Both the position numbers and the translations under genes were made by a program. A stretch of 32,336 bases of DNA from a virus: positions 1-32,336 of IMG/VR virus record IMGVR_UViG_3300046804_003546; one strand, 5' to 3'. The notes under the pieces were generated by a model. It was not told where the DNA came from, made no database searches, and saw only the letters and a program-made list of their open reading frames with translations. Shown piece after piece: positions 665-26,800 of the stretch; position 1 is the stretch's first letter; each line of letters opens with the position of its first letter.

Positions 665-717
665 AGAGTAGGGAGTATATGTCAGTCGAAAATAACGACG
701 GTATACTCCCTACCTCT
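665..717 (+). promoter_or_regulatory. RNA hairpin covering the ribosome-binding site and start codon of the first oxygenase
   Basis: TAGGGAGTATA (669-679) is exactly complementary to TATACTCCCTA (702-712). G668-C713 extends the stem, and AGA/TCT (665-667 with 715-717) extends it further past one bulged C. Inside the loop GTCG (685-688) can pair with CGAC (696-699). The stem contains the GGGAG Shine-Dalgarno sequence and the A of the ATG at 679, so folded mRNA should hide the translation start. It could also act as a weak terminator for the upstream gene, but no T-run follows it. Confidence 0.6.
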
Positions 718-1347
718 ATATTGGATAAACATGTTCTATTTCCTGGGCTTGTGCTTTATAAAAATATAATTAATCAGGGCAATGAAATAATATCAAAATT
801 TGAAAATATTTTATCTGATAATGGAAATTATAAATGGAATCCAGCAATGGTTGGCAACAGGCAAAGAATTCCAGATTATAGAGATTGTCTAGATTTTAAA
901 TTTAAAAAATCTACAATAGTAGGAACAGATGAAAATTCAGAAATAATTAAAGATTCGTGGCAGTATTTATTTGATGTAATGAATGTAGCAGTAATGGATT
1001 ATTGCAGCATGTATCCTATGGAACCATTAGAATATTGGGAGTCTATAAATCTTGTAAAATATTATCCAGGTAATCATTTCCAAACTCATGCAGATGACGG
1101 AGCATCTTATAAGTCAGTGGTATCTCTAGTTGGATATTTAAATGATGATTATGATGGAGGAGAACTATCCTTTGATGCACATGGAATTAAAATTAAACCA
1201 GATGCTGGAGATCTGGTTATTTTCCCATCAAATTATTTATTTATGCATAAAGCATTGCCAGTAACTAGCGGGGTAAAGTATTCAATTGTAACTATGCTAG
1301 ACTATAGTGATAAGTTTCACACACAAAGGTTTTATTATGGTAAGTAA
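679..1347 (+). CDS. 2OG-Fe(II) dioxygenase, prolyl-4-hydroxylase type (array member 1)
   Basis: A 222-residue protein of the P4H-like 2-oxoglutarate/Fe(II) oxygenase superfamily, which couples 2OG decarboxylation to substrate hydroxylation. Iron ligands are His137 and Asp139 (QTHADDG) and His190 (FMHKALPV); Lys200 (SGVKYS) is the expected 2OG carboxylate ligand. The family signature LNDDYDGGEL lies between them. It shares RDCxDFKFKK and a closing MLDY-xx-K(F/Y)HT stretch with member 5, its closest relative here, and the RDC motif with member 4. The start has GGGAG upstream, held in a predicted hairpin. It is the first gene of the array and its 3' end overlaps member 2. The substrate is unknown. 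Confidence 0.85.
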   Translation: MSVENNDGILPTSILDKHVLFPGLVLYKNIINQGNEIISKFENILSDNGNYKWNPAMVGNRQRIPDYRDCLDFKFKKSTIVGTDENSEIIKDSWQYLFDVMNVAVMDYCSMYPMEPLEYWESINLVKYYPGNHFQTHADDGASYKSVVSLVGYLNDDYDGGELSFDAHGIKIKPDAGDLVIFPSNYLFMHKALPVTSGVKYSIVTMLDYSDKFHTQRFYYGK

Positions 1348-1882
1348 TGAGTTGGCTTTAGGTATAAGATTATACAAAAATATAAATCTTCCATGTAGAG
1401 ATCAAATTCTTTCATTAGATTTTTCAAATGCTACAAGCGAAAGCATAATGAGTAATAGTGAATCAAGAATAGATTATTCTTCTAGAATAACACTTTCTAT
1501 TGATATTCCTTATACAAATAATAATCAAAATGAATTTACAGATATTTTTAGAGAAACATTTGATCCAGTAGAAAAAGACTATATGTCATATTTTGGCATA
1601 TCTTTAAAGTCTCATAATCCATATAAAATTTTAAAATACGAGGTGGGTGGAAAATTTGAAAATCATATGGATGATGGGGGAGGAAACTTTAGAAGAGTTT
1701 CAACAGTGTATTATTTAAATGACGACTACGAGGGTGGAGAGTTATGTTTTCCACAATTTGGGATTAATTTAAAACCAGATGCTGGCGATATGATAGTATT
1801 TCCATCATCATATGTATATTCTCATAGCGTAAAGCCAGTAATTTCTGGAAATAGGTTTTCTATAGCAAGTTGGTTAAAATGA
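1337..1882 (+). CDS. 2OG-Fe(II) dioxygenase, prolyl-4-hydroxylase type (array member 2)
   Basis: 181 residues, one of the two shortest array members. His110 and Asp112 (ENHMDDGG) and His163 (YSHSVKP) form the iron triad, and Arg173 (SGNRFS) is the likely 2OG ligand; LNDDYEGGEL is present. I place the start at ATG 1337 rather than an in-frame ATG at 1307, because AAAGG lies 7 nt upstream of it and a start at 1307 would overlap member 1 by 41 nt. The N-terminal IRLYKNI resembles member 1 (LVLYKNI), yet this is the only protein of that N-terminal type with Arg instead of Lys. The stop overlaps the next start (ATGA), implying translational coupling. Confidence 0.83.
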   Translation: MVSNELALGIRLYKNINLPCRDQILSLDFSNATSESIMSNSESRIDYSSRITLSIDIPYTNNNQNEFTDIFRETFDPVEKDYMSYFGISLKSHNPYKILKYEVGGKFENHMDDGGGNFRRVSTVYYLNDDYEGGELCFPQFGINLKPDAGDMIVFPSSYVYSHSVKPVISGNRFSIASWLK

Positions 1883-2370
1883 TTAAAGTCATAAGTACTC
1901 CAGCAAATGAGACAGACTTAGTTGGTATAACTTCAAAAATAGATGCCGTATGTCCATTAAATAGGTTTGGAGATAAACCACACTGGTCATCTGATTGTGT
2001 AAGTGCAGACCAGGTTTATAGAATTCAAAAGTTTGTTCAAAGAGTTATAGAGGAAACTGGGGTTATTTTGCAGGGACAAATTGTAGAGTTATTTAGTCCA
2101 ATAGAAAAAGTTTTTCCTTATAATATTCAATTAATTAAAATAGATAGAAATATATTCAATACAGATATTATTGTTGAAAAACAGTTATGTCAAACAATAA
2201 CACCACTTAAAGAAGAATGCAAAACATATGTATTGAACAATAACTCTGGTGATGTAGTAATAGATGAATTAGTCATGGGAGAGTATGCCATAGCAACTTA
2301 TTGGGCTGAGTACAGAGATCCTAGATATAAAAATTGGTTTATTGGAAAGTATATGGTTCGTTATGTCTAA
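1879..2370 (+). CDS. Hypothetical protein within the oxygenase array
   Basis: 163 residues that I do not recognise. The ATG at 1879 overlaps the previous stop (ATGA) and is preferred over a TTG at 1870. The N-terminal third contains CPLNRFGDKPHWSSDC, with two Cys flanking a His/Trp-containing loop; the rest alternates short hydrophobic stretches, suggesting beta structure. There is no signal peptide or membrane segment. It does not carry the H-x-D...H triad, so it is not another oxygenase. Its last 8 nt overlap the next gene. A partner or substrate role for the oxygenases is only a guess from position. Confidence 0.7.
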   Translation: MIKVISTPANETDLVGITSKIDAVCPLNRFGDKPHWSSDCVSADQVYRIQKFVQRVIEETGVILQGQIVELFSPIEKVFPYNIQLIKIDRNIFNTDIIVEKQLCQTITPLKEECKTYVLNNNSGDVVIDELVMGEYAIATYWAEYRDPRYKNWFIGKYMVRYV

Positions 2371-3154
2371 AAAAGATTTATCTAATCCAACAATCCGTGT
2401 AGTAGAAAATTTTATAGATGATGAAACATGTGACTATCTTATAAGTTATGCGGAAAAAGAAAACCTCTGGCACAATTTTAATAATTCAATTAAGAGTTAT
2501 GTATTTAAAGATAAACAAGAATATACTTCTGCAGGCAATCAATGGAATGATAGAAGGGTTGATATTAATGAGTTATACCTTCAAGGAATGGAAAATAGAA
2601 AAGATTTATTTGATATAGTAGTTCCACTACAATATAAAATGCATGATGAAGTTGTAGATTTTTTTTCTCCAGATTTTGAGTTGCATAGTGAACTGTGGGA
2701 AATTGTAAGATGGAGAGAAGGAAACTTTCAAGAACCCCATGTTGACCATATTGATCCAAACTTTGATTTAAATTCTATAGATTTATCAAATATACCAGAA
2801 GAGTGTCAGTATTTTTTTGAAGAAAGAAACATAGAAAAATATAAAAAACTTTTTACAAATAAGGCTTTTACGTCTATCATATATTTGAATGATGACTATG
2901 TGGGTGGAGAGTTATACTTTCCACAGCATAATAATTTTGAAATAAAACCAAAAAAGGGTACGATGTTAATTTTTAGTGGAACTATTGATAACATGCACGG
3001 AATTAAAGAAATTACTAATGGAACAAGATATACTCATGTAACATTTTGGTCTAACAACATATCCAAATCCAGCAAAATTGCTTTTGATAAAAAAGTCAAT
3101 AGGCTATTAATTGACAAAGACAATAAACCAATAATGAGTGTTAGCCCTATCTAA
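2363..3154 (+). CDS. 2OG-Fe(II) dioxygenase, prolyl-4-hydroxylase type (array member 3)
   Basis: 263 residues. The N-terminal RVVENFIDDETCDYLI is the helix that opens many P4H-like proteins (ENF-type, shared with members 6, 8 and 9). The iron triad is His126, Asp128 (EPHVDH) and His212 (NMHGIKE); Arg222 (NGTRYTH) should bind 2OG. A longer insertion of roughly 25 residues rich in acidic residues and Tyr/Phe lies between the HxD motif and LNDDYVGGEL. The start is ATG 2363 rather than an in-frame TTG at 2342, with GGAAAG about 13 nt upstream. The C-terminal 30 residues are Lys-rich and lie beyond the double-stranded beta-helix core. Confidence 0.85.
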   Translation: MSKKDLSNPTIRVVENFIDDETCDYLISYAEKENLWHNFNNSIKSYVFKDKQEYTSAGNQWNDRRVDINELYLQGMENRKDLFDIVVPLQYKMHDEVVDFFSPDFELHSELWEIVRWREGNFQEPHVDHIDPNFDLNSIDLSNIPEECQYFFEERNIEKYKKLFTNKAFTSIIYLNDDYVGGELYFPQHNNFEIKPKKGTMLIFSGTIDNMHGIKEITNGTRYTHVTFWSNNISKSSKIAFDKKVNRLLIDKDNKPIMSVSPI

Positions 3155-3168
3155 TAATGAAAAAATAT

Positions 3169-3197
3169 TTGATATATTGCAACAACTATGCTATACT
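3169..3197 (+). promoter_or_regulatory. Sigma-70-like promoter with extended -10
   Basis: TTGATA (3169-3174), a 17-bp spacer and TATACT (3192-3197), with TG at 3189-3190 forming an extended -10. It lies in the only sizeable gap of the array (3155-3215), 18 nt upstream of the start at 3216. It is the one promoter in the window with both boxes at standard spacing. Confidence 0.65.
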
Positions 3198-3215
3198 TAA
3201 TAAAAGGAGAAAACC

Positions 3216-3983
3216 ATGAACAATATAATGTCTTTTATGTCTAATAGACCTTGGCTTAAAAAAGATAGTAAGTCCGCACCAACTCCAATGATTAAAACAA
3301 TTCCAGATTGGTATAGAGAAGCAGATAGATTTGCGAAAATGCCTAATGGAGAATATTATAAAGCACCAAAAACAATTTGTCCTTATCCAAAAGAAGGAAC
3401 AACAGATGACTATGGTTTAATTCCTACATGGAAAGCGTGTCCATCGGTTTTTGATATTATGGGAACTGGATACTCATTAAATCTTCCTTGTGATGTAGAA
3501 TTTATTCAAAAAGACAACGGTATGCTTGAAGTAAATATAGCAGATAAACAATATAAAGATTTTGTTACCCCTAGACCTCCAATGCCACAGTTTAAGCATC
3601 CTATGGGTTACCACGAACATCATTTTGCTTGGTTTTATGATTGGGGCATGAAAACTCCAGAAGGTTATAGCACATTAGTTACTCAACCATTTAACAGATT
3701 TGAATTACCATTTCTAAACACCTCTGGTATAATTGACACAGATAAAGTACATTTTCCAGGATCTTTACCATTTTTTATTGTAAAAGGTTGGTCAGGAGTT
3801 CTTGAGGCTGGAACACCATTTGCACAAGTGATGCCTTTTAAAAGAGAAGACTGGTCATCAGATATAGTGATAGAAAATCCAATGAATATGTATACAAAGA
3901 ATAAAGAAAATTCTGAGTTTTATAGAGTCCCAGATGGAGGAGTTTATAAAAACAAAGTATGGAGCAGAAGGAAATACGAATAA
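3216..3983 (+). CDS. Conserved phage protein of unknown function (paralogue of the protein at 5384)
   Basis: 255 residues with a strong AAAAGGAG ribosome-binding site. It contains TIPDWYREADRF near the N-terminus, KACPSVFDIMGTGYSLNLP in the middle and EAGTPFAQVMPFKRE near the C-terminus. From memory this layout (W-rich start, Cys-Pro, 'G-(Y/F)-x-(L/I)-x-(L/P)P', then GTP-x-AQ-x-(I/M)PF) is shared with uncharacterised phage-encoded proteins. The protein at 5384 matches the same scheme (GWSLSCTKD; AGTPVATIIP), so I regard the two as distant paralogues. A small beta-rich enzyme or binding protein is possible. It lacks an H-x-D...H triad at the usual spacing despite a YHEHHFAW stretch. Its stop overlaps the next start (TAATG). 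Confidence 0.75.
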   Translation: MNNIMSFMSNRPWLKKDSKSAPTPMIKTIPDWYREADRFAKMPNGEYYKAPKTICPYPKEGTTDDYGLIPTWKACPSVFDIMGTGYSLNLPCDVEFIQKDNGMLEVNIADKQYKDFVTPRPPMPQFKHPMGYHEHHFAWFYDWGMKTPEGYSTLVTQPFNRFELPFLNTSGIIDTDKVHFPGSLPFFIVKGWSGVLEAGTPFAQVMPFKREDWSSDIVIENPMNMYTKNKENSEFYRVPDGGVYKNKVWSRRKYE

Positions 3984-4711
3984 TGACAACATATAATGAA
4001 AACGATAACCACTGGTTTACAAAAGATAGATCAGAAACTGCATCAAACAGAATAGCACCAAGACAACTGGCTGATGGTGTAATTGCTGAAAATCTTGGAC
4101 TAGGGTTACATGTATATCACAATACATTTTCCAAAGAGGATGCTGATAGATATATTAATATTCTTGAATCTAATTTAACAAATGGTCCTAAATATAAATG
4201 GTCAGAAGCACAAGTAACTAATTCTCCGACTCCAATTAAAAGAGCAAGAGACTGCGTTGATTTTAAATATAAGCAAGAAAATCTAGGGCCAAGAGATGAA
4301 AATAATGCAGAACTTTTAGATTTGCATGAAGAAATTTATCAAAAGTTAAAGCGTTGTGTTGATGATTATGCCGCTTATTGGGGCATCAATGTTGTTTATT
4401 ATGAAGCATTTAATTTTGTTAAGTATGAAGGAGAAGGAACTCACTTCAACATTCATGCGGATCATGGACCAGCATATAATTGTACAGTCTCTGCAGTTAT
4501 TTATATTAATGATGACTATGAAGGCGGGGATCTAAAGTTCCCAAGATTAGATAATCTTGTATATAAACCAAAAGTTGGAGATATTGCAGTGTTCCCATCT
4601 AACTATATATATGAGCATGCATCGTTGCCAATGGTATCAGGAACAAAGTATTGTGTTGTTATCATGACAGATATTAATGATTTAAGTCACAAGCAAGTTA
4701 GGAGTATGTAA
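3983..4711 (+). CDS. 2OG-Fe(II) dioxygenase, prolyl-4-hydroxylase type (array member 4)
   Basis: 242 residues. Iron ligands are His158, Asp160 (NIHADHG) and His212 (YEHASLP), with Lys222 (SGTKYC) for 2OG and INDDYEGGDL as family signature. It shares RARDCVDFKYKQ and EAFNFVKYEGEGTHF with members 1 and 5, making a three-gene subfamily. The start is ATG 3983, overlapping the upstream stop and preceded by AAGGA at 3968-3972; an in-frame start at 3959 would add eight residues and overlap the upstream gene more deeply. About 30 extra N-terminal residues precede the LHVYHN strand. The stop and the next ATG share one base. Confidence 0.85.
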   Translation: MTTYNENDNHWFTKDRSETASNRIAPRQLADGVIAENLGLGLHVYHNTFSKEDADRYINILESNLTNGPKYKWSEAQVTNSPTPIKRARDCVDFKYKQENLGPRDENNAELLDLHEEIYQKLKRCVDDYAAYWGINVVYYEAFNFVKYEGEGTHFNIHADHGPAYNCTVSAVIYINDDYEGGDLKFPRLDNLVYKPKVGDIAVFPSNYIYEHASLPMVSGTKYCVVIMTDINDLSHKQVRSM

Positions 4712-5382
4712 TGCAAACATGGACAGATAAACAAGATCTTGGCAATGGAATTTTTTGCTATAAGGGTGTAATAAAGAAAGAAATAGATGTTGTCAATAGG
4801 CTTGAAAGCACCCTGGGATCTGTTGCTGGATACGGAGAACTATCGTCTGAAGGAAAAAGATATCACTGGATGCCAGCATATGTGGGATATCAACAACTTA
4901 TGCCAGACTATAGAGACTGCGTTGACTTTAAATTTAAGAAAACTGATATAGAGTTAGATACAAGCGAAGACTCGCTAAAGTTACAATCCTTATGGCAAGA
5001 TCTTTATGATGTAAAATTGCCAGTTGTACAGGATTATTCTAGAATGTATAATATAAATAATCTTCAGTATTGGGAAGCGTTTAACTTTATTAAATATGGT
5101 CCAGGTCAACACTTTATGGAACATCACGATCATGGATTCTCCTATAATTGTACAGTTTCTCTAGTTGCATATCCTAATGATGATTATGAGGGTGGCGAAT
5201 TATATTTTAGATTACAAAATCTAAAAGTAAAGCCAGAAGCGGGAGACTTATTTGTTTTCCCATCAAACTTTATGTATCCACATCAAGCAATGCCAGTTCA
5301 TTCAGGAACGAAGTATTCTATAGTAACAATGCTTGATTATAATAAAAAGTATCATACCCCAGAAATGTATCAAGGAGATTAA
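4711..5382 (+). CDS. 2OG-Fe(II) dioxygenase, prolyl-4-hydroxylase type (array member 5)
   Basis: 223 residues and the closest relative of member 1: both share RDCxDFKFKK, a Y-W-E-(S/A) stretch, SYxxxVSLVxY and a terminal MLDY segment, and they are nearly equal in length. Iron ligands are His138, Asp140 (FMEHHDHG) and His191 (YPHQAMP); Lys201 (SGTKYS) for 2OG. The family strand reads PNDDYEGGEL, with Pro where the other nine have Leu, Ile or Phe. It starts at ATG 4711 in a TAATG overlap. The similarity to member 1, with four genes between, points to duplication inside the array followed by divergence. Confidence 0.85.
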   Translation: MQTWTDKQDLGNGIFCYKGVIKKEIDVVNRLESTLGSVAGYGELSSEGKRYHWMPAYVGYQQLMPDYRDCVDFKFKKTDIELDTSEDSLKLQSLWQDLYDVKLPVVQDYSRMYNINNLQYWEAFNFIKYGPGQHFMEHHDHGFSYNCTVSLVAYPNDDYEGGELYFRLQNLKVKPEAGDLFVFPSNFMYPHQAMPVHSGTKYSIVTMLDYNKKYHTPEMYQGD

Positions 5383-5383
5383 A

Positions 5384-6091
5384 GTGTTTAATATTAAAGT
5401 AGAAAAAACTCCAGATTCATTATTTAATATTAATCCAATGTCAATTAAAAGAGATTGGATGGATAAAACATCTGAAAATCATGCCTATAGATGTTTTCCA
5501 GTAACACAGGCAAATGTGATTGGGTGGAGTCTTTCATGTACAAAAGACATATCTTTTGAATGGAATGGCATTAATGATCAAACTCCAGATACAGTTAAAA
5601 TTTTTAGTCCAGAAGGTTCGTACTCTGGAAGAGGTCAATCATCAATAAGTTTAAGTACGGGTTTAATATTTAGAACCGATGAAGATGTTAGTTTGTTTAC
5701 TATAAATCCTGTTAACTATTTTAGTAATGAATTTGAAACTATGTCCAGTCTAATCACTACATCTTTTTATGATAATCCAATACCATTAGCATTAAAGGCT
5801 AAGGTTGCAAATAAAGTTGTTACAATTCCAGCAGGTACGCCAGTTGCAACAATAATTCCAATATCTTTAACAAATTTAAATAATAGCGTGATTGAAATTG
5901 TTAAATATTCTGATCCAGACAGAAAAAGACATGATGCAAATATTTCATATGGAAATGCATCTCAGGTTGTTAATTCATCTGGAGAGTGGACAGACTGGTA
6001 TAGAAATGCTGTAAATGAGAAGGGCGAATCTCTTGGACACCATGAAGTAAAAACATTAAAACTTGAAGTTAGACAGGGTGATATAATATGA
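5384..6091 (+). CDS. DUF6065-like protein of unknown function
   Basis: 235 residues from a GTG start. The GTG at 5384 has AAGGAG 6 nt upstream and follows the previous stop by one base; a start at 5333 would overlap member 5 by 50 nt. The segment KRDWMDKTSENHAYRCFP followed by ANVIGWSL looks like the DUF6065 family as I remember it (RDWMD, AYRC-P, GW), but I could not run a profile search. AGTPVATIIP near residue 165 matches the EAGTPFAQVMPF segment of the protein at 3216. No signal peptide or membrane helix is visible. Being embedded twice among oxygenase genes suggests that this family works with them, perhaps binding the same substrate. Confidence 0.7.
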   Translation: MFNIKVEKTPDSLFNINPMSIKRDWMDKTSENHAYRCFPVTQANVIGWSLSCTKDISFEWNGINDQTPDTVKIFSPEGSYSGRGQSSISLSTGLIFRTDEDVSLFTINPVNYFSNEFETMSSLITTSFYDNPIPLALKAKVANKVVTIPAGTPVATIIPISLTNLNNSVIEIVKYSDPDRKRHDANISYGNASQVVNSSGEWTDWYRNAVNEKGESLGHHEVKTLKLEVRQGDII

Positions 6092-6774
6092 TTATGGAAG
6101 ATAATAAGGGTGAATATAAGGTAGTACATAGAAAACCTTCAATTACTCCGTCTGGATGGTTTGGTAGTGGTAAAGAGATGATTGTTGAGTTAGAAAATTT
6201 TATGACTCAAGAAGAAATGGACTTTTTAGAAAAGGCTGCAAAATCTATAACAATTTGGGATGTAACAGAAAGCCATGTAAACGAAAATGGAACAGTTGTA
6301 TATGAGTCAAGTTATTGGAAAGACAGAGTAGCAACAAGCCCATCACTAGATAAAAATGACCCTACAATTGCTCCAGTGATTGCTGGCTTATTTCAAAGAT
6401 TAAAGCCAATAGTTGAAGAATTTTATAAGGTAAAGGTTACTCCAACTGGTACAACTATTGTTAGATGGCTTCCAGGGCAGTTTCAAAAGCCTCATGCAGA
6501 TAAAGAATTACATGAAGGACCAGATGCTGGATTACCAAATGATTTCCCAAATTATGATCTTTCAAGTCTTTTTTATTTAAATGAGGACTATGAAGGTGGA
6601 GAGTTATATTTCCCAAACCAAGGAGTTCAGTTTAAACCTAAAAAGGGTGCTGCTTACTTTTTCCCAGGGGATATGAATTATATTCATGGAGTAACAGAAA
6701 TTAAGAGTGGTATTAGATATACCTGCCCATTCTTTTGGGAGATTACTGAACATACGGGAGATAGAAAGCCGTGA
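6088..6774 (+). CDS. 2OG-Fe(II) dioxygenase, prolyl-4-hydroxylase type (array member 6)
   Basis: 228 residues (a second ATG two codons in is an alternative start). ENF-type N-terminus: VELENFMTQEEMDFLEKA. Iron ligands are His136, Asp138 (KPHADKE) and His200 (YIHGVTE), with Arg210 (SGIRYT) for 2OG; the strand motif is LNEDYEGGEL. An eighteen-residue acidic/Pro/Asn loop follows the HxD motif, similar to that in member 3, and the C-terminus also ends PFFWE where member 3 has VTFWS. Members 3 and 6 are therefore likely sister genes. It is joined to its neighbours by ATGA and GTGA overlaps. Confidence 0.85.
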   Translation: MIMEDNKGEYKVVHRKPSITPSGWFGSGKEMIVELENFMTQEEMDFLEKAAKSITIWDVTESHVNENGTVVYESSYWKDRVATSPSLDKNDPTIAPVIAGLFQRLKPIVEEFYKVKVTPTGTTIVRWLPGQFQKPHADKELHEGPDAGLPNDFPNYDLSSLFYLNEDYEGGELYFPNQGVQFKPKKGAAYFFPGDMNYIHGVTEIKSGIRYTCPFFWEITEHTGDRKP

Positions 6775-7655
6775 TAGCAATGACCTCAAATAATTTAAAA
6801 GTGACTGAAATATATCCAAAGGTTTTTGTATATAAGAATTTATATAAGAATATTGATGAAACATACAATATTTTAAAAGATTCTAATGGAGAAGATGATG
6901 GATTTTTTAGCCCATGGACAAGATGGTCACATTTTGGCGAGTATCTTTCTCCAACATTTAAGGGTCATGATTATGTTTTAACAATACAAGATCTTGAAAA
7001 GATGGAAGCAAAAACAGAAAAAGAAATTAAACATAAGGAAATTCTTTTAGAAATACTTAATAATTTTTTTATAGCAACAAAAGATTATATTAATAAAAAT
7101 AATGTTGATTTTGATGATACAAAATATCTTGAGGGTACAAAAGATCAAAATGGAAACTTAGTAAAAGAGTGGGAGTTTACTGGCCCTTCCATAGCAAGAT
7201 ATAGAACAGATATAGAAGATATAGTTGCAATGACATATCACTCTGATTATATTAGAGAACCTATTATAAGTCCAGGACATAAGTTTGCAATAACAGCATT
7301 AACATATTTTAATGATGATTATACTGGCGGGGAAATAGATTTTATTGCGAATGGAGAAGCCTTTATGTATAAGCCAGAAGCGGGCGATGTTTTAATATTC
7401 CCATCTGGGCATCCAGAACTTTTAATGGGTGAAAAATCTATATATTTACATGGGGTAATGCCTGCAAAGAATAGTTCAAAATATTTGGCTAGAATGTATT
7501 GGACAAAATATTCAAAAGGTGACGAACTCTGGTTTGAAAAAGAGAAAGAGTTTGGTAAGGAAGAATGGGCATCTATGCAACCAGAAATTATGCAAAAATT
7601 TAGGGATGAAAATCCAAACAAGATTAGTGCAGAAAAAGAAAGAAGGATATCATGA
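6771..7655 (+). CDS. 2OG-Fe(II) dioxygenase, prolyl-4-hydroxylase type (array member 7)
   Basis: 294 residues, the longest of the ten. Iron ligands are His157, Asp159 (TYHSDYI) and His227 (YLHGVMP), with Lys237 (SSKYLA) for 2OG and FNDDYTGGEI. Two insertions stand out: a Lys/Glu-rich helical stretch around residues 75-110, and a GEKSIY loop before the distal His. About 45 Lys/Glu-rich residues follow the core, probably helical. The chosen start is GTG 6771, overlapping the previous stop (GTGA) with GGGAG 10 nt upstream; ATG 6780 is a reasonable alternative that would remove three residues. Confidence 0.83.
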   Translation: MIAMTSNNLKVTEIYPKVFVYKNLYKNIDETYNILKDSNGEDDGFFSPWTRWSHFGEYLSPTFKGHDYVLTIQDLEKMEAKTEKEIKHKEILLEILNNFFIATKDYINKNNVDFDDTKYLEGTKDQNGNLVKEWEFTGPSIARYRTDIEDIVAMTYHSDYIREPIISPGHKFAITALTYFNDDYTGGEIDFIANGEAFMYKPEAGDVLIFPSGHPELLMGEKSIYLHGVMPAKNSSKYLARMYWTKYSKGDELWFEKEKEFGKEEWASMQPEIMQKFRDENPNKISAEKERRIS

Positions 7656-8398
7656 ATCTAGAAAATAAAAAAAGACTAACTAAAGATATTGTTGTTTATG
7701 AAAACTTTATCAGCAAAGAAGAATGTGAAAAAATGATAAAGGCATTAGATGCTCAGGCAGAAAATGGAAAGTTATCTTGGATGCCAATTTCTTTTTATGA
7801 GTCATACTCATCTGTGCTACCACAAGATAATGATCAAGAAATTTTAGATGCTGGACTACCTCCAACAATATTTTCAGATATTGAAAACAAGATGCCAGAG
7901 GCTATTGCTTCTGTTCATGACCTTGATCCTAAAATAATTGCAAAAATTGGATACCATACACAAAAATGGGAACCAGGAGCATATGCAAGAATTCACTCAG
8001 ATAATACTGATGAGAAAGGAAAGTCTGGAGCATTTACTAGAAGTAGATACGCTGGATTCTTATATTTAAATGATGATTTTGAAGGAGGTCTTTTAAGATT
8101 TCCAAGTAATGATATAGAGATTAAACCTCAAGTAGGCATGCTTGCTGTTTTTGACGGGGGATTTAATAATATGCACGAAGTAACTCTAATTACTAAGGGC
8201 GTTAGATATACGATAGGATCTTTCTGGGATGATAGAGAAGAAGACGCATATCCACAAGAACTGAGAGATGCTTGGGCTGAAGAAATGAAGCAAACAAGAG
8301 CAAATCAAGAAATAGAAAGAGCAGAATGGCAAGAGTTACTAAAGCAAGGGTGGAAACTTGATGACAAAGGAAATAAGTATAAGGTTGAAGAATTATGA
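7652..8398 (+). CDS. 2OG-Fe(II) dioxygenase, prolyl-4-hydroxylase type (array member 8)
   Basis: 248 residues, ENF-type (VVYENFISKEECEKMI). Iron ligands are His115, Asp117 (RIHSDNTD) and His175 (NMHEVTL), with Arg185 (KGVRYT) for 2OG. The strand motif is LNDDFEGGLL. After the FWDDRE end of the fold comes a 55-residue charged, probably helical tail finishing with the WxLDDKGNKYKVEEL segment. The start overlaps the previous stop (ATGA), with GAAGGA nine nt upstream. It resembles host-type prolyl hydroxylases more than members 1, 4 and 5 do. Confidence 0.85.
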   Translation: MNLENKKRLTKDIVVYENFISKEECEKMIKALDAQAENGKLSWMPISFYESYSSVLPQDNDQEILDAGLPPTIFSDIENKMPEAIASVHDLDPKIIAKIGYHTQKWEPGAYARIHSDNTDEKGKSGAFTRSRYAGFLYLNDDFEGGLLRFPSNDIEIKPQVGMLAVFDGGFNNMHEVTLITKGVRYTIGSFWDDREEDAYPQELRDAWAEEMKQTRANQEIERAEWQELLKQGWKLDDKGNKYKVEEL

Positions 8399-9060
8399 CA
8401 ATTCCATTTCTTAAAAAAGAATTTGAAGACGCTGGTTTTGAATTTGAAATATCTCATGAACAGATACTTATTGTTAAAGATTTTCTATCAAAACAAGAGA
8501 TAGATTTTATTATGAATATAGTTGATACAACCCCAGAAGAAGATTGGTCAATAGAATATAAGAGAAGTCTAGCAGAATTCTGTATGGAAAAGTTTGGAAG
8601 AGATGATGTAGATAATCTTGTGGCAGAAGGTAAATATGAAATAACAAGAGGCTGGGATGATAAGAATTTAAATATTGGTAAATTGGAGATTAGTAGTAGA
8701 CTTCAAAAAAGACTTGGAGATCTACTTAGGTTGGCAGATGATAATCTAGAACTTGCTGGTTTTGGAACAATGCAAAGAATGCAAGAAGGCGTTGAGTTAA
8801 AGGCCCATACAGATCAACACACAGACCCATCTATTAAATATGCTGCTATACTATACATAAACGATGACTATGAGGATGGAACTCTATTCTTTAAGAATAA
8901 AGAGAATTCAGACTTAAGACCAAAGCCAGGTTCTTTACTTGTCTTTCCAGGCAATGAAGAATTTGAACATGGTGTTAGACATGTAGGTAAAGGACCAATA
9001 AGATATGTCATAGTTGGATTCATAAAAGTAAAAAATTTTTATGAGAACAATAAATACTAG
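8395..9060 (+). CDS. 2OG-Fe(II) dioxygenase, prolyl-4-hydroxylase type (array member 9)
   Basis: 221 residues and the most divergent member. The N-terminal IVKDFLSKQEIDFIM is a degenerate ENF helix. Iron ligands are His138, Asp140 (KAHTDQHTD) and His192 (FEHGVRH), with Arg203 (GPIRYVI) for 2OG. The strand motif is INDDYEDGTL, so the usual Gly-Gly-Glu is Asp-Gly-Thr. A second HxD (HTD, two residues further on) creates an alternative metal-ligand register; I chose the first by spacing to the beta strand. The start overlaps the previous stop (ATGA). Confidence 0.82.
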   Translation: MTIPFLKKEFEDAGFEFEISHEQILIVKDFLSKQEIDFIMNIVDTTPEEDWSIEYKRSLAEFCMEKFGRDDVDNLVAEGKYEITRGWDDKNLNIGKLEISSRLQKRLGDLLRLADDNLELAGFGTMQRMQEGVELKAHTDQHTDPSIKYAAILYINDDYEDGTLFFKNKENSDLRPKPGSLLVFPGNEEFEHGVRHVGKGPIRYVIVGFIKVKNFYENNKY

Positions 9061-9068
9061 GAGGAAAA

Positions 9069-9698
9069 ATGGAAAGAGAAATACTTGAAGAAAAGGTTTA
9101 TTATTACACAAATGTAATTGAAGACCCTAAGAGATTAGTCGATGCAATTGAGAATGACAACAAGGATCCGTGGGGTGAATGGATGGCTTGCTCAGGCATG
9201 GAATATGTTTATGGAACAGACAAGAGTATCTCTCCAGCAGATCCTAGTGATGAAAAAAATACATACATTTATTCAACATTGCAAAAGGCTTTTGATGATG
9301 TAGCAAGAGATTATGCAAAGGCTCAGGGAATTACAGAAGAACCAAAACTTTTCCCAATGTACCCAATCAAGAAGTATATGGCTGGAACCTTTATGGGTGC
9401 ACATTTTGATCAGCAAGAGGGAGACGAAAGACTTAAGGTGTCTTTTGTTATGTATTTAAATGACGACTACGAAGGCGGAGAACTTTCATTCACTATTGCG
9501 TCTCCAGAAGGCGTATTGACTCAACCAAGTCCAGAATCAGATTTTGCTGAGGCAGAAAAGAATGGCAATTATACTTTTGCAATTAAGCCAAAAGCAGGAA
9601 GCATGATTGTGTTTCCTCCATCACCACCATATCATCATACTGCTCACCTAGTAAAGAGTGGATATAAGTATATGGTTCCTCAACACTGGATTCATTAA
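9069..9698 (+). CDS. 2OG-Fe(II) dioxygenase, prolyl-4-hydroxylase type (array member 10)
   Basis: 209 residues and the last oxygenase. It has the strongest ribosome-binding site of the array (AGGAGG at 9059-9064) and does not overlap its neighbours, suggesting higher or independent translation. Iron ligands are His112, Asp114 (GAHFDQQ) and probably His190 (PYHHTAH; chosen because it lies seven residues before the SG of SGYKY, as in other members). Lys200 should bind 2OG. LNDDYEGGEL is followed by an insertion of roughly 30 residues containing SPEGVLTQPSPESD before the next strand, which may reshape the active-site entrance. Confidence 0.84.
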   Translation: MEREILEEKVYYYTNVIEDPKRLVDAIENDNKDPWGEWMACSGMEYVYGTDKSISPADPSDEKNTYIYSTLQKAFDDVARDYAKAQGITEEPKLFPMYPIKKYMAGTFMGAHFDQQEGDERLKVSFVMYLNDDYEGGELSFTIASPEGVLTQPSPESDFAEAEKNGNYTFAIKPKAGSMIVFPPSPPYHHTAHLVKSGYKYMVPQHWIH

Positions 9699-9704
9699 TC
9701 AACA

Positions 9705-10361
9705 ATGAATTCAATAAACAAAATTATAAGATACGATTACGATGGCAATTCGCATGAGTGTCCAAACTGGAGTGTTGATGATTTTGGTGATAATTTTCCA
9801 GTGCCATTATATTCAATAGTTGCATACAAATTAAATAATGATTTAAAAAATGGCCATTATGTAGAAATTGGATCAAACCATTTTCAAGAAGGTAGTAACA
9901 CATATTATTTAGAAAGTGAGCATAACTGGAAAGGCTTGTCTATAGATATTTCAGAATATTATTCAGATTTATTTAATGATAATAGAAAAAATAAATGTAT
10001 AACTGGAAATGCATTAAAAGTTAACTGGGAAAAATATTTTGAAGAAAATAACTTTCCTAAAATTATTGATTTTTTGTCAATAGATATAGACTCAGAATCT
10101 GGACCACACTCAAATACTTTAGCATTTTTAAATTTACCCCTAAGTAGATATAAATTTAATATTATTGTTATAGAACATAATGGCGGAATTGATTATAGAT
10201 TTGAAGATAGCAAAAATATACAAAGAGATGTTTTATCAATGTTTGGATATCATTTAATATATAGAGGACAAACTGATGATATATGGAGTAGGGTTGAACC
10301 AAATAGTAAAAATGGGTTTAATGATATTGGAAGTATATTAGGGAGAATAATAAATGGCTGA
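9705..10361 (+). CDS. FkbM-like SAM-dependent methyltransferase (copy 1)
   Basis: 218 residues. HYVEIGSNHFQEGSNTYYLE (residues 51-70) is the SAM-binding loop of FkbM-like methyltransferases, followed by WKGLSIDIS, where the acidic residue should hold the ribose of SAM, and DFLSIDID in the next strand. FkbM-type enzymes usually O-methylate sugars or related small molecules. The gene begins 6 nt after the oxygenase array without a clear Shine-Dalgarno sequence and overlaps copy 2 by 8 nt. The next protein shares its whole core (YVE-(I/L)-G; GSNTY-LE; YFEENNFPK), so the two arose by duplication. Confidence 0.75.
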   Translation: MNSINKIIRYDYDGNSHECPNWSVDDFGDNFPVPLYSIVAYKLNNDLKNGHYVEIGSNHFQEGSNTYYLESEHNWKGLSIDISEYYSDLFNDNRKNKCITGNALKVNWEKYFEENNFPKIIDFLSIDIDSESGPHSNTLAFLNLPLSRYKFNIIVIEHNGGIDYRFEDSKNIQRDVLSMFGYHLIYRGQTDDIWSRVEPNSKNGFNDIGSILGRIING

Positions 10362-10941
10362 AACACATCAAATTACACAGCAAGAAGATTTTTTAATTAA
10401 AGTTTTAAAAGAAAAAAGAAATGGTTATTATGTAGAACTTGGTGCTTTCCATTCAAGCAAGGGAAGTAACACATATTTATTAGAGAAAGAATATGGCTGG
10501 AAGGGCGTATCTTTTGAAATAAACGATGAGTGGAGAAAAGAGTTTAGTGAGAATAGAACTAACCCATGCATGGGTGATGCTTTAGACTTTAACTATATTT
10601 CTTATTTTGAAGAAAATAATTTTCCAAAACAAATAGATTATCTACAAGTAGATATAGATGCTGGATATGATTATTTAGGCAGACCAGTTGGAAATCCATA
10701 TCTAACACTGCACGGACTACTAGCAGTTCCACTAAACCAATATAGATTTTCAGTTATAACATTTGAGCATGATTCAAATATGTACTGGAGAAATACAGCG
10801 ATGAGAGATGCTCAGAGAGAAATTCTTGATTCGCTTGGTTATTCTTTAGTGGTAAGACAAATGCATGAAGACTGGTGGGTAGATCCAAATGTTATTAAAC
10901 TTGAAGACTATAGAGATTATTTTAAGTGGGACACACTATAA
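10354..10941 (+). CDS. FkbM-like SAM-dependent methyltransferase (copy 2)
   Basis: 195 residues, a paralogue of the preceding gene and shorter by about 25 residues at the N-terminus. YVELGAFHSSKGSNTYLLEK (residues 26-45) is the SAM loop, WKGVSFEIN supplies the acidic ribose-binding residue, and YLQVDIDAG is the following strand. GGGAG lies upstream of the ATG. The C-terminal part (MHEDWWVDPN, then DYRDYFKW) differs from copy 1, so the acceptor specificities probably differ. It is followed by the dehydrogenase with a TAATG overlap. Confidence 0.75.
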   Translation: MAETHQITQQEDFLIKVLKEKRNGYYVELGAFHSSKGSNTYLLEKEYGWKGVSFEINDEWRKEFSENRTNPCMGDALDFNYISYFEENNFPKQIDYLQVDIDAGYDYLGRPVGNPYLTLHGLLAVPLNQYRFSVITFEHDSNMYWRNTAMRDAQREILDSLGYSLVVRQMHEDWWVDPNVIKLEDYRDYFKWDTL

Positions 10942-11606
10942 TGCAAAAAACAGCAATAGTTACTGGTGCCAGCAAGGGTGTAGGCTATGCAACAGTAAAA
11001 TTATTATCTGAGAATGGCTATAAAGTTATAGCAGTATCCAGAAATTTATCAAAAATAATAGAGTTAGTTTCTGATAATGTTGAGGCATACCAGATGGATA
11101 TAACTAATGAAAAAGAGATTAAACGCTTTCATGAAAAATATCAGGATATTACTTTAGACCTTTTAGTTAATAATGCAGGTGGTGGCGCAGGTCCTACACA
11201 TATTATTAATGAAACAATGGATAATTTTAGAAGAGCCTACGACATAAATGTATCTGGCCCAATGTATCTTTCCCAATTATTTGTTCCATCAATGGAAAAA
11301 TCAAAATCTCCAACAATTATATTTATTAGTTCTCTTGGGGGAAAGTTCCCATACAGGTCTGGTGGAAATTATACAAATGCCAAAAGAGGTATGATGGCAC
11401 TTGTAGATACTATGAGATTAGAGTTTCCTCAGTATGGAATTAAAATAACAGAAATTTGTCCAGGTACAATAGATACACAAATAGAAAAAAGAGATATTGC
11501 GTTAACAGCAGAAGACATGGCAGAATGTATTAGATGGGTTGCAGAATTGCCAAGTCATGTTAATATTAATCATATAGAATTAAATCATTTACTTAGTGGT
11601 AAATAG
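10941..11606 (+). CDS. Short-chain dehydrogenase/reductase (classical SDR)
   Basis: 221 residues with every classical SDR motif: TGASKGVG (residues 8-15, nucleotide-binding loop), NNAG (77-80), Ser131, and Tyr144-x3-Lys148 in YTNAKRG. An Arg in AVSRNL after the second strand favours NADP(H). PSHVNINHIEL near the C-terminus resembles the YdfG-type (3-hydroxy acid / serine dehydrogenase) branch of the family. It oxidises or reduces a hydroxyl/carbonyl group. Coming after ten hydroxylases, it could act on a hydroxylated product; this is inference. The start is ATG 10941, overlapping the previous stop; a GTG at 10926 is less likely. Confidence 0.85.
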   Translation: MQKTAIVTGASKGVGYATVKLLSENGYKVIAVSRNLSKIIELVSDNVEAYQMDITNEKEIKRFHEKYQDITLDLLVNNAGGGAGPTHIINETMDNFRRAYDINVSGPMYLSQLFVPSMEKSKSPTIIFISSLGGKFPYRSGGNYTNAKRGMMALVDTMRLEFPQYGIKITEICPGTIDTQIEKRDIALTAEDMAECIRWVAELPSHVNINHIELNHLLSGK

Positions 11607-13763: not shown

Positions 13764-16700
13764 ATGTCTACTCTATCAAACCTATATGCAGAAAAGGTGT
13801 TTTCGGAACACCCAACTGGCCTATGGGCGCTTGATGATAATGCAGACTATGTTTCTTTAATTTCAGAACAACAAAGGAACTTATCCTCATGGACAATATA
13901 TGGTGGAACGGCATCTACATATTCTGAATCTATAGGGGAACCTTTTATAAATAGTTATGTTGGGCGAATTGTTGCTAATCAAATACCCACAAAAACTGCA
14001 TCTATAACTGCAATAAGCCCAGAAATTATTGATATCCAAGATCTAAATGAATATCTTAAAACATTTTCTGTCGGTGGTTATTTTTATTCAGAAAGTTCTT
14101 ATATTTCTGGATTTTCAATCGGGTATCAGTATAAAGATAAAACCAGTGGAACAGATATAAGACATCTTAAAAATTTTGATACTGTTGTAAACAGCAATTG
14201 GTTGTTTATATCAGAAACCTTTGATACACCTCCAGATGATTCTGCAATTAGAATAGTTTTTAAAATTAACTTCGTTGGTGACACAGATGTGGAGCATGCT
14301 TTTAGAGTAAATGGAATAACGCTTGGCCAATGGTCAGAAGAGTTTGCATCTACATCTCTTGGAACAAATGTTATTGATATTCCTTCAACAATATCTATTG
14401 CACCACAAAAAGGTATTGTTGCAAAATGCTACGGCCTACAAGAATTAAATGGATACTATCTTGTATCAGATAATATGATAAAGGCAAAAAATGCTGGAAT
14501 TCCTTTAGTCTATGGAACTCCAGGCCATACAACATTGTCTGAAAATAAAGATTTGCCGTCATTAATAATTCCTGGCGTAGGAATGTTAAATCATGTAGGT
14601 CAGTATAAACAATATACTCTTGAAACATGGCTAAGAATAAATTCATATACAAATGAAAGAAAAAGAATTATTGGCCCTATTGCATCAACAGATGGAATAT
14701 ATGTAGACGGGCCATCAATAGGATTAAAAGTCGGTAACGAATATAAAACTAACTATATTGGAGAATGGACAAGGCCAATGCTTGTTCATATGAAAGTTGG
14801 AAAAGATAATGCATCATTATTAATTAATGGAGAAGAGGTTATATCTTTACCATATTCACAAACATCGGCAATTCTCCCATCCGAATTAAACTCAAGTGGT
14901 AAAAATCAAGACTGGATTGGCTTTTATGCTTATGAAGATGTGTCCCCAATAGATATAGACTGCGTTGGAATTTATCCATATTTAGTTGCTACACAGGTTG
15001 CAAAAAGAAGGTTTGTTTTTGGACAGGGTGTAGAGATACCAGAAAATATCAATACATCTTATAGTGGAACATCTATTGCAATTGATTATTCTTTTGCAGA
15101 CTATACTGCTAACTATTCATATCCTAAAACTGGATCTTGGAATCAAGGGTTTAGTGATAACCTTTCAACAGCAAATAAATCAATATCTGTAATATCGCAT
15201 CCATTACCAGAAATAGTTTTATCTTCAAAAACAGAAACAGAATTATTTACAGATAATAGAGCAGCAAATCTTATCTCAAATACAGAAAATTTTTTATATG
15301 ATGAAAGAGAATACTTTACTTTTAGGCCAACAACAGCGTGGGATTCTGTTAACGCCTATCTATTTTTTGAAAAATTTGATACATTAAAGACTCCTATTTC
15401 TGCATTCTATGGATGTTTCCAGTTAAAGTCAAATGTTACTGATCCTCAAATATTGTTTAAAATAGAAAAAGAAAACACATCTAACTACTTTAAAATACAA
15501 GTAAGGAATAATATTTTAGAATATATTATTCATGCTAATGGACAGTCAGAAACTTTATATAAGTCTGAAGTTCTCAATGCTAATGAATTTTTTGAAGTAG
15601 GCGTGAATATTCCAAGGTTTGTAGAAATTTTTGGTAATCCAACATCAGACTTCTTCGGCTCTTTAGCAGATTTAAGAATGTATGTTGGAGGAGATAGAAC
15701 AAGCAGTCAAACCTTTACGGGTAAAATATATAATGTTGGCTTTACAACCAAGTATAATTTTCAAAAAATAAAAAATCTTTTTAATGAAGTTGGAGTTCCT
15801 AAACTTAACGAAGACTTATTCTTTGCTTATCAAAATAATCAAATTATAAATATTGACGGAGGAATTGATACAACCTCTCAAGCACCACACGGAGGACTTA
15901 CTGATGTATCACCTGGAGCAATATCTGGTGGTGGCGTAATTCTTTTAGAAGAAGATTTCTTGATTGAGCATACAGCAAGTTATACTCTAGTTCCAGATAT
16001 CTTATTTGAAAAATATACTCTTGCTGTAGCATCAAATGCGTATTGGGAAGATAATATTCCGCTTACATATTTTGCAGAATCTGTTTTTGATAAAAGAGGT
16101 GATCAATATTTTGATCTTGATTTTATTCAGTTTAATGTTAATTATCCAATTCCAACAAAAACTATTGCAATAGAAACAGAGCCAATAGACTGGACATATG
16201 CAGAACTTGCAAATCAGTATGGTGTTCCAGTACAAAGAACCTACGAATCTCTGGACAACTATTTATTTACTGGATATAACGATTATGAAGATTTAAAAAA
16301 TAAAGTAGCAAAGGATTATAGATATGATACTGACGGCTCATTAGCAAAAACATATGTAACATTTCAATATACAGAGTTGGGGGCAAATGCTACTTCTGAA
16401 TATTTTACTAAGGTTGAAAGGCCTGCAAGAAACGGGGTATTGATTCCAGGAACAGATTGGATGACAACAAAGTATGAGGTTGTAGATAACATGATTATCT
16501 ATCCACCTTCAGGAGTTGATTTTAATGATTTGTCAATTGTTACTCATATAGATATTAATGTAAAAAATTCAGCAATCAATAATGTTAATATTAAAAAAAT
16601 GTCTTATGCTTCACAGGCATTAAATGAATCAGATGCAAGTCCAATAGGTACAAGATTTGGAACCCCAATTTATCCATACACAAAGTCTGGTATTTATTAT

Positions 16701-17504
16701 GACTTTAAAAAGAATAATCCATTTTCAATATATAACGCATCTTCTCCATACCTTTATTTAACAAAAACTAGCGGTATACAATTAAGAGGAGTTTATGATC
16801 CATTAGTTAATAGAGGACTTCTAGTTCCAATTAACTCAAGTCGTTCTGATGGATTTAAAGTAATTGCTATGCAACTTGCTGTAAGATTTGATGGAGATTA
16901 TTTCCCATATGCTCCAACTGAAATTTTTGAAATTGAAAGTAAAGGCTCGTATATAAAGTTCTACATGGTAGCCTGCGACCCTGAAGGAAGAAGAGCAAAA
17001 ATCTATGCAATTGATACAAAGACTGGTTTGGTACAAAATGGAATAGGTTTTTATTGGAATGGAAAGATTGTAAAGGAGCCAGTAATAACTTTACAAGACT
17101 GGGGGTTCCTAGGAATTAACTTCTCAGATAGTTTAGATTTTTCATATTTTGAAGGGGCAATAAGATTGACTGGCCCAATATTATTTAATAACATATCTTT
17201 CTATCAGTCTACAAACTTGCAAGAAGTCCAGAATGTATCAGAGCGACCATGGTTTAGAGTAAAGGTTTTAAATTCTAGTGAACTAGACTGGAAATTCTGG
17301 AATACTGGAACATTTAACTGGAATAAAGTGTTGGTTTTATCAGAAACCAGTTATTATGGAGTAAACCCAGCCGAAGTATATAAGAGTTATACGGGAACAA
17401 ATAAGATCATAGTAGATGATACTAAGGTTTTAAGGTTTGGTAAATACAAATATTCAGCATATTCGGATGTGACCTGGAACCAAATAGTAGTAGACCCAGT
17501 TTAA
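13764..17504 (+). CDS. Large structural protein with several LamG/concanavalin-A-like domains, probably a tail or fibre protein
   Basis: 1246 residues. The start GLWALDDNADYVSLIS is typical of phage proteins that begin with a short virion-binding segment. A jelly-roll-like domain (about residues 75-190) precedes a LamG-like domain (about 275-405; YTLETWLRIN, ASLLINGEEV, DWIGFYAYED). A second LamG-like unit spans about 510-670 and a third about 1030-1155 (VIAMQLAVRFDGDYFPY to RLTGPILFNNISFYQ). Such domains bind carbohydrates or proteins, so a host-recognition or fibre role is likely. No catalytic motif or signal peptide is seen. It lies between the reductase and the portal operon, away from the tail genes. 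Its start lacks a Shine-Dalgarno sequence but has a -10 box just upstream. Confidence 0.7.
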   Translation: MSTLSNLYAEKVFSEHPTGLWALDDNADYVSLISEQQRNLSSWTIYGGTASTYSESIGEPFINSYVGRIVANQIPTKTASITAISPEIIDIQDLNEYLKTFSVGGYFYSESSYISGFSIGYQYKDKTSGTDIRHLKNFDTVVNSNWLFISETFDTPPDDSAIRIVFKINFVGDTDVEHAFRVNGITLGQWSEEFASTSLGTNVIDIPSTISIAPQKGIVAKCYGLQELNGYYLVSDNMIKAKNAGIPLVYGTPGHTTLSENKDLPSLIIPGVGMLNHVGQYKQYTLETWLRINSYTNERKRIIGPIASTDGIYVDGPSIGLKVGNEYKTNYIGEWTRPMLVHMKVGKDNASLLINGEEVISLPYSQTSAILPSELNSSGKNQDWIGFYAYEDVSPIDIDCVGIYPYLVATQVAKRRFVFGQGVEIPENINTSYSGTSIAIDYSFADYTANYSYPKTGSWNQGFSDNLSTANKSISVISHPLPEIVLSSKTETELFTDNRAANLISNTENFLYDEREYFTFRPTTAWDSVNAYLFFEKFDTLKTPISAFYGCFQLKSNVTDPQILFKIEKENTSNYFKIQVRNNILEYIIHANGQSETLYKSEVLNANEFFEVGVNIPRFVEIFGNPTSDFFGSLADLRMYVGGDRTSSQTFTGKIYNVGFTTKYNFQKIKNLFNEVGVPKLNEDLFFAYQNNQIINIDGGIDTTSQAPHGGLTDVSPGAISGGGVILLEEDFLIEHTASYTLVPDILFEKYTLAVASNAYWEDNIPLTYFAESVFDKRGDQYFDLDFIQFNVNYPIPTKTIAIETEPIDWTYAELANQYGVPVQRTYESLDNYLFTGYNDYEDLKNKVAKDYRYDTDGSLAKTYVTFQYTELGANATSEYFTKVERPARNGVLIPGTDWMTTKYEVVDNMIIYPPSGVDFNDLSIVTHIDINVKNSAINNVNIKKMSYASQALNESDASPIGTRFGTPIYPYTKSGIYYDFKKNNPFSIYNASSPYLYLTKTSGIQLRGVYDPLVNRGLLVPINSSRSDGFKVIAMQLAVRFDGDYFPYAPTEIFEIESKGSYIKFYMVACDPEGRRAKIYAIDTKTGLVQNGIGFYWNGKIVKEPVITLQDWGFLGINFSDSLDFSYFEGAIRLTGPILFNNISFYQSTNLQEVQNVSERPWFRVKVLNSSELDWKFWNTGTFNWNKVLVLSETSYYGVNPAEVYKSYTGTNKIIVDDTKVLRFGKYKYSAYSDVTWNQIVVDPV

Positions 17505-26021: not shown

Positions 26022-26041
26022 TACAACTTAATAATACAGTT

Positions 26042-26070
26042 GGCCCAATCCCTTCGGGGGTTGGGTCTTT
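26042..26070 (+). terminator. Rho-independent terminator with UUCG tetraloop
   Basis: GGCCCAATCCC pairs with GGGGTTGGGTC (11 bp, two G-U pairs) closed by C-TTCG-G, a very stable tetraloop, and is followed by TTT then CTGTTT. It ends the tail tube transcript and lies 5 nt upstream of the next promoter. Confidence 0.9.
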
Positions 26071-26075
26071 CTGTT

Positions 26076-26084
26076 TGGTATACT
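26076..26084 (+). promoter_or_regulatory. Leaderless promoter of the long tail chaperone
   Basis: TGGTATACT, identical to the word at 17507, ends 6 nt before the ATG at 26091. The -35 position lies inside the terminator stem, so no -35 contact is possible. No Shine-Dalgarno sequence is present. Confidence 0.6.
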
Positions 26085-26090
26085 TATATA

Positions 26091-26768
26091 ATGGCAACAA
26101 AAGTTTATAATACCAAAAAAATATCATTAATAGATGACAGAGTAATAACTGCTGCACCCTTAAAAATAAAATATCTTAGAGAATTTTTAGAGGTTTTTGA
26201 AACAATTAAAGAGGCAAAAACAGATGATGAATCTATATCTGTACTGGCTCATTGTGCACTTATTGCAATGCAACAGTATTGTCCATCAATTAAAACAATA
26301 GAAGATTTAGAAGATAGCCTAGACTTACCCACAATATATGAGGTTATTGATATAGCAGCAGGGATTAAGATTAATCAAAAATCTGAAGAAACAGTTAAAA
26401 GCCAAGCCGTAGATAGTGGTTCAACATGGGAAACTTTAGATTTGGCAAAACTAGAATCAGAGGTTTTTCTGCTCGGAATATGGAAAGACTATGATCAATT
26501 AGAGTCATCAATGTCTATGCAAGAGTTAACAGCAACCCTACAAATAAAAAGAGAATTAGATTATAATGATAAAAAGTTTTCCGCTGCTATGCAAGGCGTA
26601 GATTTAGACAAAAACTCTGGAACAGGTAATGAATGGGAAGACATGAAGGCTAGAGTGTTTAGTAAAGGTGCAACAACAGATGGAAGAGATATTCTGGCTT
26701 TACAAGGCAGCAATGCTGAAAAGGCTGGTTTTGGAATAGGCATGGGGCTTGATTACGAAGTTTATTAA
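26091..26768 (+). CDS. Tail assembly chaperone, long form (G-T type)
   Basis: 225 residues; start at ATG 26091 because the leaderless promoter ends 6 nt before it, while a start at 26040 would lie in the terminator. Residues 1-100 match the short chaperone at 26827 (PLKI-x2-LR-F, IAMQQY-P, NLDLPT-like SLDLPTIYEV, A-GIK-I). Residues 115-225 are an extra domain (SEVFLLGIWKDYDQLESSMS, then KKFSAAMQGVDLD) resembling the T part of frameshifted G-T chaperones in siphoviruses. It binds the tape measure protein during tail assembly. Normally G-T is made by a -1 frameshift from G; here it is a separate, continuous gene placed before G. Confidence 0.8.
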   Translation: MATKVYNTKKISLIDDRVITAAPLKIKYLREFLEVFETIKEAKTDDESISVLAHCALIAMQQYCPSIKTIEDLEDSLDLPTIYEVIDIAAGIKINQKSEETVKSQAVDSGSTWETLDLAKLESEVFLLGIWKDYDQLESSMSMQELTATLQIKRELDYNDKKFSAAMQGVDLDKNSGTGNEWEDMKARVFSKGATTDGRDILALQGSNAEKAGFGIGMGLDYEVY

Positions 26769-26791
26769 TGATAAAAAATAAGCCCACGCTA

Positions 26792-26800
26792 TGGTATAAT
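26792..26800 (+). promoter_or_regulatory. Extended -10 promoter of the short chaperone and tape measure gene
   Basis: TGGTATAAT in the 58-nt gap 26769-26826, followed by AAGGAGG (26815-26821) and the ATG at 26827. The leader is about 20 nt, so this one is not leaderless. Confidence 0.6.

Follow-up and report, generated by a model that had tools for sequence, protein, structure and literature searches.

Introduction

Peptidyl hydroxylases of the 2-oxoglutarate (2OG)-Fe(II) oxygenase superfamily are already known from viruses. PBCV-1 vCPH (5c5t) and the mimivirus lysyl hydroxylase (6ax7) belong to viruses of eukaryotes with few such genes, and act on collagen-type (Gly-X-Y) or lysine substrates. 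In cyanophages, where one genome can hold as many as five 2OG genes, roles in nitrogen metabolism or DNA repair have been suggested for them (PMC3037559). A structure-based survey found phage 2OG proteins to resemble the human prolyl hydroxylase EGLN3 (PMC12774648), and in a Baltic Sea viromics study P4HA is one of the auxiliary genes found in viruses, with a viral use that 'remains cryptic' (PMC9301287). Viral prolyl-hydroxylase genes have repeatedly been catalogued as auxiliary metabolic genes; here we describe large arrays of them tied to one candidate substrate. The stretch analyzed, hereafter the window, is the 32,336-nucleotide record IMGVR_UViG_3300046804_003546, a 32-kb IMG/VR fragment of an uncultured freshwater phage. 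Ten 2OG-Fe(II) oxygenase genes are clustered in it directly downstream of a gene for a Phe-Pro (F/P)-repeat protein. The array most likely hydroxylates this virion-type protein, an activity to which we assign a probability of about 0.65. The pairing of the F/P-repeat protein with oxygenase arrays is what appears to be new: literature searches found no description of an F/P-repeat phage protein or of such a pairing.

The locus shares features with each of the described systems. The prolyl 4-hydroxylase (P4H) of Chlamydomonas (3gze/2jig), the top fold match of array member g7, is of the same superfamily, has the same metal and 2OG residues, and likewise has a Pro-rich repeat as its counterpart to the candidate substrate. 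It differs in sequence (15–17% identity); moreover, the phage candidate substrate is Phe-Pro rather than Ser-Pro or poly-Pro, and the phage has many paralogues per cluster. The PBCV-1 and mimivirus enzymes, as virus-encoded peptidyl hydroxylases among the g7 fold matches, are comparable to the array but lack an associated Phe-Pro tract. The 2OG genes of T4-like Synechococcus and Prochlorococcus phages fall into the same PHROG (phrog_61), and cyanophage S-CAM4 has three of them just 3′ of a short tail fibre gene. Unlike the array, cyanophage 2OG genes are mostly scattered, in at most four places per record among the matches listed; no DUF6065 gene, the companion of the arrays described below, was found in cyanophages, and the F/P tract is absent from the three annotated regions examined. 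Streptomyces phages of the BillNye/Circinus/LukeCage type are not among the organisms with 2OG tblastn matches listed.

Ten intact oxygenase genes

The array spans positions 679–9698, and all of its genes lie on the plus strand. Every one of the ten oxygenases exceeds the gathering cut-off of PF13640 (2OG-FeII_Oxy_3; 27 bits) in a Pfam profile search, with scores of 31.6–65.9 bits, which bears out a preliminary description of the window made from its sequence alone. The array opens with g1 (679–1347; 54.4 bits) and g2 (1337–1882; 65.9 bits), followed by u3 (1879–2370), a 164-aa protein of unassigned family that gave zero matches in Pfam, PHROG and NCBIfam profile searches, and by g4 (2363–3154; 38.8 bits). 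Next come D5 (3216–3983), a DUF6065-like protein that matches phrog_7084 (E 4.5e-33) and DUF6065 itself below cut-off, the oxygenases g6 (3983–4711; 42.2 bits) and g7 (4711–5382; 53.4 bits), and the DUF6065 protein D8 (5384–6091; 92 bits). Five consecutive oxygenases complete the array: g9 (6088–6774; 39.4 bits), g10 (6771–7655; 31.6 bits), g11 (7652–8398; 36.2 bits), g12 (8395–9060; 47.1 bits) and g13 (9069–9698; 44.7 bits). The ten members thus sit in one cluster, as first described, but u3 and the two DUF6065 genes are interposed. Overlaps of 1–12 nt had been reported between them; most junctions are indeed small overlaps of 1–11 nt (25 nt at most, if g6 starts at 3959), but gaps also exist, the widest of 61 nt.

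The HxD...H iron ligands and the distal Lys/Arg for 2OG are present in all ten proteins. The catalytic residues given in the preliminary description are correct and no member of the array is degraded; for g6 its numbering (H158/D160/H212/K222) applies to the ATG at 3983 and becomes 166/168/220/230 from 3959. Residues invariant in the ten-protein alignment are G131, H137, D139, Y153, N155, D157, G161, F165, P174, G177, F182 and H190 in g1 numbering. Few alignment gaps aside, the H, D, H and K/R positions are kept in every full-length orthologue compared (10–80 per gene), including H137/D139/H190/K200 of g1 and those of the 11 orthologues of g4, with the g6 positions checked in the window copy only. 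Median pairwise ratios of non-synonymous to synonymous substitution (dN/dS) of 0.06–0.25 indicate purifying selection and are far from the value near 1 that had been named as potential counter-evidence. The ratio is lowest in g6 (0.06), g11 and g13 (0.07 each), g4 (0.08) and g1 (0.09), intermediate in g2 (0.11) and g12 (0.14), and highest in g10 (0.25).

The ten window proteins share 17–51% pairwise identity. A 160-protein tree groups each of g1, g6, g7 and g9–g13 with its orthologues in other phages (clade support 0.81–1.0), and the g2 and g4 clades are weakly supported; most array members are orthologous between phages, position by position. Given these orthologous clades, the low dN/dS and the kept catalytic residues, the members make up a long-standing, intact and non-redundant set, and redundant or decaying copies are ruled out. 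The preliminary description likewise saw neither degradation nor redundancy; its further inference of ten positions or substrates goes beyond these results. Nor is the array unique to this phage. A search with g7 recovered at least 599 viral stretches, and full arrays in the best 80 loci, from related freshwater phages, have 6–11 members. The earlier view that a ten-gene array is unusual does not survive this survey. Reciprocal best hits reveal a near-universal core of about six or seven oxygenases (g6, g7, g9, g11, g12 and g13), together with the DUF6065 genes; g10 is a variable member that some loci lack, and g1, g2, u3 and g4 co-occur, essentially confined to loci whose upstream protein is of the Hint type described below.

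DUF6065 genes are found in 56/58 multi-2OG F/P loci against 0/119 random loci, and none was found among annotated phages. Foldseek matches the D8 protein to dUTPases (E about 8e-4), and sequence comparison of DUF6065 with the PDB gave weak, chance-like matches only; with modest confidence, we suggest a dUTPase-like fold for the family.

Structural kinship of the enzymes

The solved structures nearest to a profile of the ten proteins are Bacillus anthracis P4H, prolyl 3-hydroxylase 1, Chlamydomonas P4H and PHD2. The structure of g7 was predicted, and the resulting AlphaFold2 model (pLDDT 87) is nearest to P4H-type enzymes. Its top Foldseek match is the algal P4H bound to (Ser-Pro)5, and further matches include PHD2-HIF, Pseudomonas putida P4H-EF-Tu, PBCV-1 vCPH and the mimivirus lysyl hydroxylase. 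The model and its matches within the superfamily support the double-stranded beta-helix fold for g7 only. The closest structural relatives all modify peptidyl residues, and profile and model comparisons place the array enzymes in the peptidyl prolyl-hydroxylase type. DNA or base modification was considered and rejected: two members match Tet_JBP weakly, at 16.4 and 20.2 bits against a cut-off of 34.9. A collagen system was likewise rejected, the linked protein carrying Phe-Pro repeats and no Gly-X-Y repeats. Separately, the 113-kb relative G001, alone among the genomes examined for it, has a collagen-like open reading frame (ORF) some 15 kb 5′ of its array (L089, 7530–8264); the same genome encodes an APTPVAPTPV-repeat protein with another 2OG-like gene directly 3′ (L089:10062–12559).

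A Phe-Pro-repeat protein upstream of the array

The preliminary description overlooked the most informative feature of the window, the Phe-Pro-repeat protein encoded directly upstream of g1 on the plus strand (positions 3–656). The ORF enters the window within its F/P tract, the 5′ part of which lies beyond the window edge. The 3′ part, composed of FFPP and FFP repeats (3–173), reads FFPPFFPLFPPFFPPSFPFFPFFPPFF... and is followed by a Hint/intein-like domain (174–656; dN/dS 0.12) that forms the C-terminus. Visual inspection of this domain shows a Cys1 (encoded at 174–176) and a terminal His-Asn; its profile matches are weak and both below cut-off (Hint_2, 24.4 bits against 28.4; Intein_splicing, 18.0 against 35.8), and the region matches phrog_38766, a virion structural protein, with an E-value of 4.9e-7. 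The sequence ends His-Asn-Lys-stop and is therefore without the normal C-extein nucleophile. The domain could cleave off the F/P tract or attach it. Divergent Hint domains occupy the same place in F/P loci L132, L144, L168 and L213. In relatives the full protein comprises Fn3-like repeats (by eye), an F/P tract of 30–180 residues that are nearly all Phe and Pro, and at the end either a Hint domain or a short tail that is often rich in Cys.

The gene sits amid fibre-type genes in G001. TTC accounts for 96% of its Phe codons, compared with 80% in the capsid gene and 12–43% in most other genes compared, a bias to be expected if the protein is structural and abundant and its gene also avoids runs of T. 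Because of its position among tail-fibre-type genes and its capsid-like codon usage, the F/P protein is probably an abundant structural component of the virion. A non-coding pyrimidine tract acting at the DNA level is unlikely: the frame runs into the Fn3-like and Hint domains, Phe is mostly TTC, and the third positions of Pro codons are mostly A or G.

The F/P gene and the oxygenases are tightly linked. Among the loci found through their 2OG genes, all 67 with sufficient upstream DNA (67/67) have the F/P gene directly upstream. Searching by the F/P pattern alone, we find 53/76 assessable F/P genes followed within 1.5 kb by a 2OG gene, against 17/229 upstream control genes, and PF13640 in 47/50 F/P viral records (median six copies) against 2/50 random records, chosen through a DNA pattern that has no connection with F/P. 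Some of the F/P loci are related to one another and the counts are not corrected for this, so the statistics overstate independence. The nearest 2OG proteins in this search form eight clusters at 50% identity and do not represent one near-identical clone. The F/P pattern is so rare in cellular genomes (93 stretches in 84,980 genomes, nearly all single matches) that the long tract seems to be a feature special to viruses. Three contigs of bacterial metagenome-assembled genomes (L261, L293 and L295; Gammaproteobacteria SP183 and a Chitinophagaceae assembly) have two F/P matches each, and are perhaps phage contigs inside bins.

Genomic neighbourhood and host

The array was described as part of a phage late region, and the portal (17927) and major capsid protein (20992) genes confirm this placement. 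The order 3′ of the array is two FkbM-like genes, a short-chain dehydrogenase/reductase (SDR), a class II ribonucleotide reductase, portal and capsid. The two FkbM-like genes (9705–10941, plus strand) are named methyltransferase-type by sequence resemblance, gave zero Pfam, PHROG or NCBIfam matches, and are variable, many relatives being without them. The SDR (10926–11606, plus strand; adh_short, 146.6 bits) often adjoins the array in relatives. The nearest annotated relatives of the capsid protein are Streptomyces phages of the BillNye/Circinus/LukeCage type (43% identity over 78%), and WhiB-like proteins, recognizable by their cysteine motif, occur in two long relatives (L093:10100–10378 and L098:3209–3532). 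As whiB-like genes are a marker for actinobacterial phages (PMC6802176; PMC10202952), these two lines of evidence make an actinobacterial host likely.

Two further features of the window deserve mention. A 1246-aa protein without a Pfam or PHROG match is encoded between the ribonucleotide reductase and the portal (13764–17504) and has a counterpart of similar length in the same place in G001. Two neighbouring ORFs with similar N-termini, 5′ of the tape-measure gene (26040–27150), resemble a duplicated tail-assembly chaperone.

Discussion

Which protein and residue are modified, how the members share the work and what the phage gains by it we infer as follows. The ten genes would act as one module for the post-translational modification of a probable virion protein, their products hydroxylating prolines, and possibly further residues, within the F/P tract and next to it; nearby fibre proteins may be modified too. 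Separate members would read separate motifs, for example F-P-F and F-P-P-F. Hydroxylation might allow the very hydrophobic tract to dissolve or fold, or ready it for binding or further decoration.

The distribution of g6 hints at such motif-specific enzymes. A recognizable g6 is present in 65/65 typed loci with single-proline [F/Y]-P-[F/Y] motifs and in 0/10 strictly FFPP-type loci, a covariation that is lineage-confounded and includes some truncated loci, whereas a g9-type gene occurs in 75/75 typed F/P loci. Locus L196 keeps g7, g9, g10 and g11 while both g6 and the F-P-F motif are missing. The pattern fits enzyme duplication and specialization as the tract acquired motifs. Among the FFPP-only loci of other phages, L136, L152 and L174 have additional 2OG genes of very divergent sequence, which lie on both strands and also beyond the core groups.

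Besides possible lineage effects on the g6 pattern, several observations weigh against hydroxylation of the F/P tract by a motif-specific set. FFPP-only loci other than L196 mostly carry one divergent, generalized g1/g6/g7-like gene, which the tree places near g6 in two of them. Proline occurs in the tract in only a few different contexts (FPP, PPF, FPF and some minor ones), fewer than the ten enzymes. PF13640 was not found in 3/50 F/P records, nor in 6/17 re-checked records, mostly fragments; the remaining 11/17 re-checked negatives have 2OG genes elsewhere in the record. Finally, the adjacency of F/P gene and array could be inherited linkage. A more elaborate version of the proposal is tentative at best: a hydroxylation 'assembly line', whose motif-specific set was duplicated as the tract gained motifs, would turn an insoluble F/P polypeptide into a virion fibre or adhesive, the Hint domain releasing or covalently attaching the product in one lineage.

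The alternatives all account less well for the F/P linkage. The array might tailor glycans or small molecules on fibres or the host surface, in concert with the methyltransferase-like and SDR genes and the glycosyltransferase- and epimerase-like genes of relatives, the F/P protein being a mere neighbour. The SDR and FkbM-like genes do adjoin the array, and genes resembling glycosyltransferases and epimerases by sequence lie upstream in G001. We nevertheless consider this unlikely: neither the methyltransferase-like genes nor, in several loci, the SDR could be recovered beside the array, the closest structural relatives work on peptides, and the strict F/P linkage is left without explanation. 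Slightly less likely again is that the enzymes hydroxylate mainly other proteins, such as Pro-rich or collagen-like fibre proteins, or host EF-Tu as bacterial P4H can. The P. putida P4H-EF-Tu complex ranks among the top fold matches, and G001 supplies both the collagen-like ORF and the APTPV-repeat ORF followed by a 2OG-like gene, but multi-copy arrays track the F/P tract specifically and one member, g6, tracks an F/P motif.

Roles in metabolism, nitrogen sensing or DNA repair and modification are very improbable. They have been proposed for the 2OG genes of cyanophages, which are scattered and number up to five (PMC3037559), and the two Tet_JBP matches, though below cut-off, point the same way; against this, the array lies in the structural region directly 3′ of a fibre-type gene, its nearest relatives are prolyl hydroxylases, and multi-copy arrays track F/P tracts.

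Hydroxylation of the F/P protein by its neighbouring array offers a testable answer to why phages hold so many prolyl-hydroxylase genes, and mass spectrometry could address it directly. If true, phages would have their own version of the hydroxyproline-rich protein systems known from algae, plants and animals. The division of labour within the enzyme set could then be read from the way the motifs vary in nature, and the F/P protein would represent a novel class of viral low-complexity proteins.

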